Part shown: positions 21,737-37,026 of the stretch, in pieces
Position numbering within the stretch: position 1 is the stretch's first letter
Layout of the letters: each line of letters opens with the position of its first letter
Assembly: GCA_022566315.1 (NCBI GenBank)
Contig: JADFJC010000023.1
Span: 1 to 37,026, forward strand
Direction: 5' to 3'
Length of the DNA: 37,026 nt
Source: Planctomycetota bacterium
GTDB taxonomy: Bacteria > Planctomycetota > Phycisphaerae > Sedimentisphaerales > Anaerobacaceae
The notes under the pieces: model-generated
The model's input: only the letters and a program-made list of their open reading frames with translations
Told to the model about the DNA's origin: nothing
Databases searched by the model: none
Program-made: the position numbers and the translations under genes

Positions 21737-22501
21737 TCAGGGTGAAGAGGTCAGGACATATTTTGCCATTTTTGGTTTGTGGCCGAGAAGCTCGGTGAAG
21801 TGGTGAACTAAAACCGTCTCAATTTCATTCAGCGTTTTTTCCTGTGATTCGGCTAACAGTTTCAGATTGCTCAGACAATTGGCCGCCGTTTGGGTCAACC
21901 TGACCTTGTCCGGGAAACTCGCTTCGCAATCTCTGCAAATCAAGCCGTTGGCGGAGCTGCTGAAGTAAACTCGATGCTCGATGTTCGATACTCGATGCTC
22001 GTATCTCGTTTTGCAATTCACACAGTAACTTAGAATCGGCTGTAGGCCGACCTCTTTCAGCAGCCCTAACTGGAATAATATCAATAATGCCAACATCTGG
22101 TGTTTGTTTTTGTTCTCCTGGGCGTTTTGTAAGAACTGCAAAAAGTCATCGAAAAGTTGTGGGTGTGGGTCGTAGTCGTGGGTAAATTTATTCAACAATT
22201 CGGTACTGAAAAGACAGCAGTTCAAGGTAAAAAGGTTATTGCTAAGGCCGGTAAAACCCGCACCCCCGCAGGCTGATTCGAATTCAGTCAAAGTGGCGAG
22301 TTTTTCTTTGTTTGAATCGAAAAAAACAATTTTACCATACGAGAATATTTCGATAGGGCCGTCGAATGCCGATTTAGGCCGTTTCGAGCCTTTGGCGATG
22401 GCGCTGATTTTGCCGGCTGCCCTGGCAAAAAATGTTACTATCTGAGACGTCTCGGAATAATCTACAGCGCGTATGCAAATAGCTGTATCTTTGATTAACA
22501 C
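21737..22501 (-). CDS. recO: DNA repair protein RecO
   Basis: Recombination mediator that loads RecA in the RecFOR route. 254 residues: OB-fold start KDTAICIRAVDYSETSQIVTFF...GKISAIAKGSKRPKSAF, a helical middle, and a zinc ribbon with CVNC and CRDC. The loop between the two Cys pairs carries RYEHRVSNIEHR (about 165-177), read from the tandem repeat at 21971-22008. The start GTG and first codons lie in another repeat (gtcagtgttaatc), and the last codons TSSP plus stop come from the REP-like cttcgactccgttcagggtgaa. It is last in a long minus-strand gene row, in the neighbourhood (ybeY, corC, phoH) where recO is often found. Confidence 0.93.
   Translation of the reverse strand: MLIKDTAICIRAVDYSETSQIVTFFARAAGKISAIAKGSKRPKSAFDGPIEIFSYGKIVFFDSNKEKLATLTEFESACGGAGFTGLSNNLFTLNCCLFSTELLNKFTHDYDPHPQLFDDFLQFLQNAQENKNKHQMLALLILFQLGLLKEVGLQPILSYCVNCKTRYEHRVSNIEHRVYFSSSANGLICRDCEASFPDKVRLTQTAANCLSNLKLLAESQEKTLNEIETVLVHHFTELLGHKPKMAKYVLTSSP
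21971..22008. repeat. tcgatgctcgatgttcgata-type tandem repeat inside recO
   Basis: Units of about 10-13 bases (ctcgatgctcgatgttcgat, actcgatgctcgtatctcg) are in frame within the RecO zinc ribbon. Related non-coding tracts are at about 33469-33488 and 34483-34510. Confidence 0.85.
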
Positions 22502-22652
22502 TGACCAACACTGACTTTAACACGGATTAACACTGACCCCCACCGCAGGAGTGGGGGCTAAACACTGCGCCCTCTGTCCTCTGTTATCTGTCTTCTGTTA
22601 TCTGTCTTCTGTCCTCTGTCTTCTGTCCTCTGTTATCTGTCTTCTGTCTTCT
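22502..22652. repeat. Double repeat tract forming the corC-recO junction
   Basis: 22490-22540 is cacggattaacactgac-type repeat holding the recO start. 22568-22652 is a run of about six ctgtcttctgtcctctgtta-type units. The minus-strand corC-like gene ends inside it, giving the tail KIQKTEDR. Essentially the whole intergenic space is repeat. Confidence 0.85.
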
Positions 22653-23949
22653 GGATTTTGATGCACTTTATCCTTCTGGCCTCAGCCGAGGTGATAGTGA
22701 ACTTAAGATTTTCGTAATCGAAGTTTTCTCCTGTCTTTGGAATATAACCAAGACGCGAAAAGACAAAGCCGCCTATGGTCTCGTAATCTTCATCTTCGGG
22801 CAGATTCAATTCGAACTGGTCATTGATATCGTCGATGTATGTTCTTGCGTCGGCTTCAATGGTGTTTTGGTCTATTTTCTTTATCGGTTCGGGCGGTGTC
22901 TCTTCATATTCGTCGGTTATTTCGCCGACAAGCTCTTCGAGAATATCCTCTAAGGTAACGACCCCGGCCGTTCCGCCATATTCATCTAACACTACAGCTA
23001 TATGCAGTTTTTGATTTTGAAATTCGTGCAGCAGCGATCGCAGCGGCTTACTTTCAGGGACAAAATAAGCCTTTCTTATTTTATCACGTAACTTGAACTC
23101 TGTGCACGTTTTGCCAATCTCGGCCAGCAGGTCTTTTGCATAGACAAGGCCGATTATGTTATCGATATTCTCTTCATAGACCGGAACGCGCGTATGTCCG
23201 GCCATAGTGATAGTATCCAGAACCTTTTGCAAATCAGAGTTGACTTCGACTGCTACAATATCGGTACGAGGCGTCATAATCTCATCGGCGGTGCTGTTGC
23301 TCAACTCTAAGACATTTTCAATCATCTCCTGCTCTTCTTCATCGAGCACGCCTTCGGTTCTGCGCCGCTCCAGGCCGGTGATAAATTCCTCCTGCTTTTC
23401 TTCCTGTTGTTCTTCAGGGGTTGTTTCAGCTACGCCGGCCAGGCGCCGGACAAAGCCATCGTATAATCTAAAGATATAAAGAACAGGTGCCGCTGCAATC
23501 GCAAATCCCGTCAACAGTTTGTACGTTCGGCTCAGAATTTTTTCACCTGCGTATTTAGCCCAGGCCTGAGGAACTGCCAGACTGAATATCGAAAATATTA
23601 CCATCGCAGCAATAAATATAAGAAGATAGCTGATTACAGTATCGACCGGGTCTTCCGCTGCTCCGGGACCGATGAAAACAGCTACCAACAGCAGTAATAT
23701 ACATATATTCAGGATGAGCCGATATAAATAGCACGTCAAAATCAGCTCTTCAGCCTTTTCTGCCAACTGTTCGGTGAGCTCTTCCGGAGTTGTCTTTTTG
23801 TTTTTTTTCTTGAACGCTTCCTGTAATTTGACGTGCGAGAATGTTCGCAGGGCAATGGCATTGACGGAAAAGAACAATGTACCGCCGGCAAGAAAACAAA
23901 TCAACAACACCGCCAAACCAACAATGCCCACTTCCTGACAACCTTTCAA
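22633..23949 (-). CDS. CorC/HlyC-type CNNM membrane protein with CBS pair
   Basis: 438 residues with the CNNM/DUF21 layout: four membrane segments in the first 170 residues (GIVGLAVLLICFLAGGTLFF, LILNICILLLLVAVFIG, ISYLLIFIAAMVIFSIFSL, LLTGFAIAAAPVLYIF), a CBS pair starting VLDEEEQEMIENVLELSNSTADEIMTPRTDI with TRVPVYEENIDNIIGLVYAKDLL and HIAVVLDEYGGTAGVVTLEDILEELVGEI, and a CorC_HlyC domain near DYETIGGFVFSRLGYIPKTGE. Such proteins are linked to Mg or Co efflux; the substrate here is not known. The start codon is TTG 23949, with no strong ribosome site; a GTG six codons on is possible. The C-terminal KTEDR comes from the ACAGAAGACAGAGG repeat. Confidence 0.9.
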   Translation of the reverse strand: MKGCQEVGIVGLAVLLICFLAGGTLFFSVNAIALRTFSHVKLQEAFKKKNKKTTPEELTEQLAEKAEELILTCYLYRLILNICILLLLVAVFIGPGAAEDPVDTVISYLLIFIAAMVIFSIFSLAVPQAWAKYAGEKILSRTYKLLTGFAIAAAPVLYIFRLYDGFVRRLAGVAETTPEEQQEEKQEEFITGLERRRTEGVLDEEEQEMIENVLELSNSTADEIMTPRTDIVAVEVNSDLQKVLDTITMAGHTRVPVYEENIDNIIGLVYAKDLLAEIGKTCTEFKLRDKIRKAYFVPESKPLRSLLHEFQNQKLHIAVVLDEYGGTAGVVTLEDILEELVGEITDEYEETPPEPIKKIDQNTIEADARTYIDDINDQFELNLPEDEDYETIGGFVFSRLGYIPKTGENFDYENLKFTITSAEARRIKCIKIQKTEDR

Positions 23950-33522: not shown

Positions 33523-34014
33523 CTAATGACGGCCCCTCCCGGATTTCGGGAAATTCAGGCTGGCGAACTCGCCGTGATATTTTATTGCAGCGCGGTCGTA
33601 GGCCTTCGCCGCCTCTATTTCGTCGCAGAAGGTGCCGAGATATATTTTCTTTCTCTCGAATGTTATCTTAACCTCCCATTTGCGAGTCTTCTTTCTCCGG
33701 TAAACTCCTTTATATTTTGAGCTGCTCGATTTGGGGAATTTCTTCCTGTTGCGTATGTTCTGGGCCCGCGTGGCGCCTCTGAGGTTTGCCCTTCTATTAT
33801 CCATGCTGTCTTGATTTACATGGTCGATCAGCAATCCATCGGCAACGTCTATGAGTTCATGGTGCATGTATATCGTAGCCAGCTTGTTTCCTTTTGTTCC
33901 TCTCGCTCGTCTTACCGCGTAGAAGCAGCTTTTTCCTTTTTGTGTAAACCATTCGTATTCTCGCAGGCCCTTGTAATCGCCCGGGGCCACCTTTGCGTAC
34001 CGAGGCTGCGTCAT
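33523..34014 (-). CDS. HNH-AP2 endonuclease
   Basis: ATG 34014 gives about 163 residues starting MTQPRYAKVAPGDYKGL; the frame is open to 34074 without a better signal. A HNH_3-type nuclease core follows: YAVRRARG, YMHHELIDVADGLLIDHVNQDSMDNRRANLRGATRAQNIRNR. Then an AP2 DNA-binding domain: SKYKGVYRRKKTRKWEVKITFERKKIYLGTFCDEIEAAKAYDRAAIKYHGEFASLNFP. This order is that of free-standing homing endonucleases carried by phages and mobile DNA. A fragment of its 3' end recurs at 36823-36914. Mobile activity is inferred. Confidence 0.88.
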   Translation of the reverse strand: MTQPRYAKVAPGDYKGLREYEWFTQKGKSCFYAVRRARGTKGNKLATIYMHHELIDVADGLLIDHVNQDSMDNRRANLRGATRAQNIRNRKKFPKSSSSKYKGVYRRKKTRKWEVKITFERKKIYLGTFCDEIEAAKAYDRAAIKYHGEFASLNFPKSGRGRH

Positions 34015-34137
34015 GCGAATACGCCGAAACGCATACCCGTAGCGCGCCCGCCGATACCAAAGGAGCGGCAGCACGGCGAGTTTCCTGAGCCAACACGGAA
34101 TATGAACAGTTGTTTTGATTTGTCCCCTCCGCTGTGA

Positions 34138-36221: not shown

Positions 36222-36240
36222 AACCCCCTGCGGTGCAAGG
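36222..36240. repeat. Degenerate third REP hairpin
   Basis: AACCCCCTGCGGTGCAAGG is a damaged copy of the two hairpins flanking the RAYT gene, 20 bases outside the left one and in the same direction as it. Confidence 0.6.
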
Positions 36241-36256
36241 TAATAAGGAAATAAAT

Positions 36257-36283
36257 GAACCCCCTGCAGTGCAGGGGGCTAAC
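36257..36283 (+). repeat. Left REP hairpin of the RAYT unit
   Basis: GAA-CCCCCTGCA-G-TGCAGGGGG-CTAAC: 9-bp perfect stem, directly at the 3' end of the transposase gene. It is the near-exact inverted counterpart of the hairpin at 36756-36784. Confidence 0.85.
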
Positions 36284-36287
36284 ATTT

Positions 36288-36737
36288 TTATTCTTCGTGT
36301 AGCTGGACGTATTTGATTTTCATTTCTAATTCGTGCTGATGATAACAATATCTTTTATCAAAACCTTTTGTCCATAGTTTGTTTGCGAATCCATACTTTC
36401 GTAATGCTTTTGTCGCTGCCTTTTTGAATCGTCCCACTGAATACCCGCACCTCTTGCCTATGCTTTCAACAACAATATGTACATGATTACTATATACTGC
36501 TATCGCATAAACTTTTTGCCCAATTTCTTCTGCTTCTTTGAGAATTGCGTTTTTAACTGTGTTGCGAAGATTTTTAGGAATCTTTACTTTATCGTGCTTG
36601 AGTAATTCTTTGTTGGATTTTTCCAGTTCAGGATTTGCTTCTAAGGTAGTTGTATTTTTAACGTAACCTTTTCTATCCCCTTGTAACCATGTCCCGTAAG
36701 TGGTCCAGGTCGCCATGAAACCAATCATGCTTGCCAT
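36288..36737 (-). CDS. REP-associated tyrosine transposase (RAYT, IS200-like)
   Basis: 149 residues of the Y1/IS200-like transposase fold: start FMATWTTYGTWLQGDRKGYVK, the HUH motif NHVHIVVES (about residue 85), a helix with FKKAATKALRKYGF, LWTKGFDKRYCYHQHE and the catalytic tyrosine in IKYVQLHEE at the C-terminus. Such single-domain tyrosine transposases nick and move single-stranded REP hairpins, and are usually single-copy domesticated genes. Here the gene lies between two REP hairpins in inverted orientation, as expected. Several ATGs follow each other (36737, 36728, 36713); the first is used. All key residues look intact. Confidence 0.88.
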   Translation of the reverse strand: MASMIGFMATWTTYGTWLQGDRKGYVKNTTTLEANPELEKSNKELLKHDKVKIPKNLRNTVKNAILKEAEEIGQKVYAIAVYSNHVHIVVESIGKRCGYSVGRFKKAATKALRKYGFANKLWTKGFDKRYCYHQHELEMKIKYVQLHEE

Positions 36738-36755
36738 ATAATTTTAAGTTTAATT

Positions 36756-36784
36756 GTTAGCCCCTTGCACTGCAAGGGGTTTTT
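36756..36784 (-). repeat. Right REP hairpin of the RAYT unit
   Basis: GTTAG-CCCCTTGCA-C-TGCAAGGGG-TTTTTA: 9-bp perfect stem, 19 bases upstream of the transposase start. Its complement matches the left hairpin except for two compensating base-pair changes in the stem, which keep the fold. Confidence 0.85.
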
Positions 36785-36822
36785 ATGCCACCTATTCGCC
36801 GAAGAACCCAACCCTGACGGAT

Positions 36823-36914
36823 TTACACTCGGCCGCTCCCGGATTGCGGGAAATTCAGGCTGGCGAACTCGCCGTGATATCTTATTGCAGCGCGGTCGTA
36901 GGCCTTCGCCGCGT
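36823..36914 (-). pseudogene. Decayed 3' end of a second HNH-AP2 gene
   Basis: 36831-36912 matches 33531-33612 with three mismatches (offset exactly 3300). On the minus strand it reads DAAKAYDRAAIRYHGEFASL, then NFPQSGSGRV and TAA, the end of the AP2 domain. Upstream sequence (36915 onward) is unrelated to the full gene, so only the last 30 codons remain. One base change makes Arg for Lys. Confidence 0.88.
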
Positions 36915-37026
36915 CGGACCAAGTTTCTTGTAAAAAATGGGACCTGTTTCTGAACTATTGCCAATGTGCCAAAAATTTCACTTTTTCGAATTTTGCATAC
37001 AGGTACCTTCATATTTGGTAAAAAAT
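36915..37026. other. Right edge without recognised gene
   Basis: The last 112 bases are A/T-rich. The long frame crossing this part on the minus strand runs through the AP2 remnant in a wrong frame and through the REP hairpin, so it is not accepted as a gene. Confidence 0.5.

Follow-up and report, generated by a model that had tools for sequence, protein, structure and literature searches.

Class 3 TnpA-Y1 transposases, which occur in Planctomycetes, Acidobacteria and Proteobacteria, are characterized by a Y----Q motif and a CnGA foot, and the class 2 or canonical RAYTs are defined by the motif Y---NP (PMC6006769). In IS608 and E. coli TnpA-REP, the HUH histidines share the bound metal with Q131 and N119, respectively (PMC6006769). 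The REPs of Stenotrophomonas maltophilia have an 8-bp stem and a 3-nt loop; both foot and loop are needed, and the foot serves as a guide (PMC8266576). We analysed a stretch of 37,026 nt of planctomycete DNA (order Sedimentisphaerales; contig JADFJC010000023.1; hereafter the window), in which a RAYT-like gene lies between two REP hairpins. This locus is very probably a REPtron-type unit, i.e., a single-copy HUH-Y1 transposase flanked by two inverted cognate REPs, which it is proposed to nick and spread, because its cognate hairpins are inverted, such hairpins are spread through the genome, and genes and hairpins match one another. With its YxxxH motif and TTAG foot, the unit apparently represents an undescribed planctomycete branch of the RAYTs. 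The word TTAG is absent from the main texts of two surveys of RAYT and REP diversity, and a full-text search of the main texts of open-access papers found none on such a YxxxH/TTAG family.

The whole unit covers 524 bp on the minus strand (36258..36781), delimited by its DNA similarity to the units of two relatives, L051 and L080. The gene (36288..36737, minus strand) encodes a RAYT-like HUH-Y1 transposase of 149 aa, identified by PF01797, fold match and residue conservation. The 3′-side REP (36258..36282, minus strand; stem-loop 36260-36278; 38.0 bits with the covariance model) reads TTAG CCCCCTGC ACT GCAGGGGG TT, and the 5′-side REP (36757..36781, plus strand; stem-loop 36761-36779; 36.6 bits) reads TTAG CCCCTTGC ACT GCAAGGGG TT. 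Both hairpins have TTAG at the inner, gene-ward edge and TT at the outer edge, and are thus inverted with their feet inward. About 20 nt outside the 3′-side REP lies a footless, truncated REP copy (AACCCCCTGCGGTGCAAGG; about 36222..36240, minus strand). The gene and three hairpin-like copies named in the original prediction, including the inverted flanking pair, are all present where it placed them. A solo TTAG REP that belongs to a different type (TTAGCCCCCACTCCTGCGGTGGGGG; 22537..22561, minus strand; pattern match G000:C69:22537-22561) is intergenic, between the minus-strand ORFs 21737-22501 and 22633-23949. The right flank of the unit (36797-36925, minus strand) looks like the 3′ end of a gene of AP2-domain/HNH type (DAAKAYDRAAIRYHGEFASLNFPQSG); it resembles an intact AP2/HNH gene at 33523-34074 (minus strand), but just this fragment remains ahead of the contig end.

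The window protein has the features of the HUH-Y1 superfamily, an HUH motif (H85-V86-H87) and a single catalytic tyrosine (Tyr143) in a Y1 fold, together with His147 at Tyr+4 and the C-terminal motif YVQLHEE. PF01797 (Y1_Tnp) matches it at 25.4 bits (cut-off 23, E 1.6e-5). The AlphaFold2 model, based on an alignment of 43 homologues, reaches a mean pLDDT of 92.6. Its 30 PDB matches at E ≤ 1e-3 comprise only IS200/IS605-type transposases and the E. coli TnpA-REP/REP complex 4er8, the nearest solved structures being IS200, IS608, ISDra2 and TnpA-REP. The closest relatives come from a Sedimentisphaerales bacterium (74% identity) and Phycisphaerales UBA9295 (73%). Compared with L051 and L080 (73–74% identical), the window gene has dN/dS values of 0.12–0.13 (NG86) or 0.17–0.23 (LWL85/YN00). 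The claim that the enzyme looks intact is borne out by a whole reading frame and by purifying selection. An unlikely alternative is that the gene is an inactive or domesticated relic whose hairpins are kept for mRNA stability or supercoiling and are exchanged by ordinary recombination. The intact window gene, with dN/dS of about 0.12–0.2, speaks against a relic, as do the HUH and Tyr residues, which hardly vary, if at all, among the 55 TTAG-type genes (one has H87Y).

The gene is RAYT-like, with cognate inverted REP hairpins, and to this extent the RAYT identity originally proposed stands; it is not a canonical RAYT. A class 2 assignment was rejected on the Y motif (YVQLHEE instead of Y---NP) and on the score against NF047646, the NCBI REP-associated transposase family (25 bits, cut-off 80). 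The same genome does encode a canonical class 2 RAYT, L125 (G000:C237:2487-2936), with YIHYNP and 183 bits to NF047646, and this C237 gene was used to root the tree. The 55 TTAG-type genes group together (local support 0.56), and their sister is a set of 15 genes, some of them acidobacterial, that show the class 3 motif as published (support 0.87). Both groups conserve HUH and Tyr. His occupies Tyr+4 in 50/55 genes of the TTAG group and Gln in 4; this position corresponds to Q131 of IS608 and N119 of E. coli TnpA-REP. At Tyr+5, all 15 class 3 type genes have Gln, where the TTAG clade has Asn most often and the window protein E148. Since the group has neither the Y----Q motif nor the CnGA foot (its foot is TTAG, or ATAG in one sub-branch), neither diagnostic feature of class 3 is present. 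The RAYT/REPtron features found here are inverted flanking REP hairpins with a 5′ tetranucleotide foot, TTAG rather than GT[AG]G, and dispersed solo extragenic hairpin copies, only three of which are of the window's exact type. Genes L160–L164, from other planctomycete families and 36–42% identical, also have His at Tyr+4 and TTAG-type hairpins near the gene. Two genes of class 3 type from another planctomycete family, L166 and L167 (YVLHRQ), have GTAGCCCCCTGC..GCAGGGGGC hairpins on either side, and the foot is thus variable inside class 3 too. A separate HUH class of Planctomycetes, with an all-histidine metal site (H-x-H plus the Tyr+4 His), a TTAG/ATAG guide, a lineage-specific loop code, a relocating gene-plus-hairpins unit and hairpin exchange at the foot edge, is a possibility that we entertain with considerable doubt.

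The flanking hairpins consist of the TTAG foot, an 8-bp stem, a 3-nt ACT loop and a terminal TT, and their DNA folds at −9.9 and −9.1 kcal/mol (z about −3.5). The 9-bp stem originally proposed is not borne out, as it would force a 1-nt loop. Stem differences that keep pairing had also been claimed; this holds for one pair, C-G vs T-A, which is the single, compensated stem-pair difference between the two hairpins, and fails for several positions. The main evidence for compensation is the genome-wide hairpin set and not the window pair. Among 17 distinct loop-3 hairpins of the genome, the inner four pairs, which the search pattern leaves free and to which the variation is confined, show two-sided variation in 26 cells vs 7.5 in shuffled sets; 99.4% of cells are paired vs 84.7% in shuffles, and the covariation score (0.424 vs 0.108) is reached by 0/500 shuffles. 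Only hairpins of equal length entered the covariance model, as MAFFT misplaced the 3′ arm in a set of mixed loop lengths. Within a single unit, the loop and the loop-closing bases are kept and mid-stem pairs change with compensation, suggesting that the protein reads the foot and loop and not the mid-stem.

TTAG hairpins are abundant and mostly extragenic in the host genome, as judged from pattern and covariance-model searches. The pattern TAGCCCCN{7,30}GGGGTT, which fixes only TAGCCCC and GGGGTT, matches 54 places against 1 for the reversed control, and the hairpins are thus not due to chance. The covariance model, which scored 150 of 1381 candidates, gave at least 87 matches at E ≤ 1. The hairpin pattern of the original prediction, with ≤3 mismatches, finds 15 places (control 2), including three solo copies of the window type and several other hairpin types. 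The expectation of further hairpin copies is met by only three solo copies of the exact type (C64:220, C174:1061 and C141:23770; TTAG-CYCCCTGC-ACC-GCAGGGGG-TT) and by many more in the TTAG superfamily. Contig boundaries often fall about 1 kb or less from REP arrays (the starts at C25:97, C64:218, C96:149, C155:1035 and C174:1059, and the end of C188), so that the draft genome probably contains more REP copies and arrays than were counted.

Only 3 of 32 tested hairpins lie inside ORFs of ≥120 aa, compared with an ORF coverage of 65% (binomial 9e-11). Such placement would also suit ordinary intrinsic (bidirectional) terminators that by chance flank a small transposase remnant; terminator-like matches overlap both window hairpins, a resemblance seen on one strand, and the right hairpin is followed by TTTTT. 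Terminators, however, need no TTAG foot. A search for CCCCN{7,20}GGGGCTAA, which carries the CTAA foot, gave 158 overlapping match windows (control 2), with about 60 distinct hairpins counted by eye among the first 99 of them, whereas the CTAB-foot search gave 25 windows and about 10 hairpins, 7 of them a single ATAG-foot type cognate to one paralogue. Terminators would also not be expected to have a loop sequence that follows the transposase clade, or feet pointing inward on both sides of the gene, and we regard this explanation as highly improbable.

Each paralogue in the host genome has its own hairpin type. The genome contains five genes of TTAG type, and the other four are 43–53% identical to the window or C96 gene. 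The hairpin core is GC-ACY-GC for the window gene, GC-ACT-GT for the C96 gene, GC-TYY-GC for the C205 gene, GT-TTY-AC for the C142 gene, which has an internal stop, and GT-CCYGT-GC with an ATAG foot for the C190 gene. The C142 gene (L018, G000:C142:53314-53757) is interrupted by an in-frame TGA, and its hairpin type, GTTTYAC, is the commonest in the genome with roughly 24 copies, a point in favor of the relic reading. REPs of this type may be relics themselves or be served by another gene.

The matching of genes and hairpins extends across the order, in which 61 genomes were searched and 33 had a match. We compared the flanks of the 55 strong-group genes; for 48 of them a footed hairpin lies no more than 150 bp away. 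The foot of the nearest hairpin points gene-ward in 42/44 cases upstream and 30/42 downstream, and 23 of 28 two-sided units show the inverted, feet-in arrangement. The two hairpins of one unit are alike (mean distance 0.19 vs 0.36 for permuted pairs, with 0.30 as the minimum in 1000 permutations), and hairpin distance tracks protein distance (Mantel rho 0.29, 0/2000 permutations). The genes L020, L104 and L100, which are closely related, have an ATAG foot on either side. In 11 units (L018, L051, L054, L060, L071, L080, L089, L092, L102, L108 and L109), the downstream TTAG foot supplies the TAG stop of the gene.

The median number of TTAG hairpins is 35 in genomes that have a strong gene and 3 in those that do not (controls 2 and 3; p 4e-6). 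Nevertheless, nine genomes, G014, G041 and G051 among them, have ≥15 hairpins yet no strong clade gene, suggesting that REP spread may be old or may occur in trans; such genomes would also fit a relic. In G051, which has 269 TTAG hairpins, the only genes found were a basal class 3 gene with an interrupting stop and a second gene that is class 3-like.

The unit itself may have moved. The DNA similarity of the window unit to L051 and L080 spans TT to TT (36258-36781) and the neighboring genes differ, which fits relocation of the whole unit as far as sequence comparison goes; no counterpart of the SGNH hydrolase gene next to the unit of the relatives was found in the host genome. Alternatively, these limits could reflect diverged non-coding flanks, with the alignment stopping at the conserved hairpins, or flank loss. 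A different location from that in relatives would also suit a simple IS200/IS605-type (class 1) insertion sequence rather than a RAYT or REPtron, and this reading shares the fold, with NF033573 matching 25/43 members at E ≤ 1e-3. In contrast to such elements, the ends are inverted rather than a left and a right end on the same strand, the genome holds single-copy divergent paralogues (43–53% identical) with no near-identical duplicates, solo hairpins are many, and NF047646 is a better family match than NF033573. A class 1 insertion sequence is thus very unlikely.

Hairpins may also be exchanged at their borders. A 70-nt left flank recurs next to two REP types, meeting each at its TTAG edge (L029 vs L156), and a right flank likewise adjoins two REP types, here at the TT edge (L028 vs L004). 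Such junctions are the expected trace of cutting and joining at REP borders, and recombination between REPs can leave the same trace; the swapped hairpins on shared flanks could therefore also come from homologous recombination, as the relic reading supposes. The mosaic arrays (L029 and L156–L158; L004, L005 and L028) have near-identical flanks with REP types swapped at the foot or TT edge. They also contain other palindromes, e.g., ATTCCTGC repeats.

The footless third copy is not freshly decayed but inherited or recurrent, because the same copy is present in L051 and L080 and such copies recur on the outer side of other hairpins. The window copy (36222-36240) lacks both the foot and the outer part of the stem and fails to fold (−1.1 kcal/mol), and in L051 and L080 the same footless copy, AACCCCCTGCGGTGCARG, lies 20–30 nt outside the full hairpin. 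The copy had originally been described as decayed; the foot and part of the stem are indeed lost, but the same footless form is kept in two relatives. Footless copies occur on the outer side of 9/197 hairpins and on the inner side of 2, with counts of 1–2 in the controls. A role as a regular second end was rejected, the outer-side occurrence being recurrent and not universal. In L051 and L080 the copy is on the 5′ side of the gene and in the window on the 3′ side, which suggests that the gene was inverted between its hairpins; an ancestral footless copy on both sides would give the same arrangement and is inseparable from inversion.

The anatomy of the unit, its intact frame and fold, the gene-hairpin matching, the covariation, and the genomic spread and extragenic placement of the hairpins are directly supported, and by analogy with described REPtrons the window protein would be the enzyme that mobilizes the hairpins. 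Most likely, it binds the REP as a single-stranded hairpin, as in other REPtrons (PMC8266576), and would read the loop, the loop-proximal bases and the 5′ TTAG foot together. The foot may act as a guide for nicking nearby single-stranded DNA through Tyr143, as proposed by analogy with the same system (PMC8266576), with a metal presumably held by His85, His87 and probably His147. As the foot retains A3 and G4, the simplest prediction is that CT dinucleotides are cleaved. By nicking and strand transfer of this kind, REPs would spread to extragenic sites and form mosaic arrays, and the gene unit itself, judging from the comparison with its relatives, may move as well.

These units touch on how RAYTs choose and spread REPs, and on whether the gene itself moves. 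The 55 natural pairs of gene and hairpin, with independent variation of foot, stem base and loop, make the recognition code directly testable, and the guide rule likewise, by asking whether TTAG vs ATAG shifts the cleavage site. The Tyr+4 His adds a possible third metal ligand to those of Y1 enzymes.

Among known systems, class 3 TnpA-Y1 resembles the unit in its sister position in the tree, in the NHVH, W[TA] and YV motifs, and in gene-flanking hairpins that are copied in the genome, but it has Y----Q and a CnGA foot where His at Tyr+4 and TTAG/ATAG are found here. The Group 3 / subclass 2.5 REPtron of Stenotrophomonas maltophilia shares the perfect 8-bp stem, the 3-nt loop and the 5′ tetranucleotide foot, and its loop is decisive for recognition (PMC8266576), whereas its GTAG foot and Y---NP motif, compared with TTAG and YxxxH here, mark another protein class. 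E. coli TnpA-REP (4er8) is similar in its fold, its REP-flanked gene and a foot abutting the stem, and differs in a bulged REP stem, GTAG and Asn119 as the third metal ligand (PMC6006769). IS200/IS605 elements (IS608, ISDra2) share the HUH-Y1 catalytic core and hairpin recognition; unlike the present unit, their ends are not inverted REPs, the third metal ligand is Gln131 (IS608), and they occur as near-identical copies.
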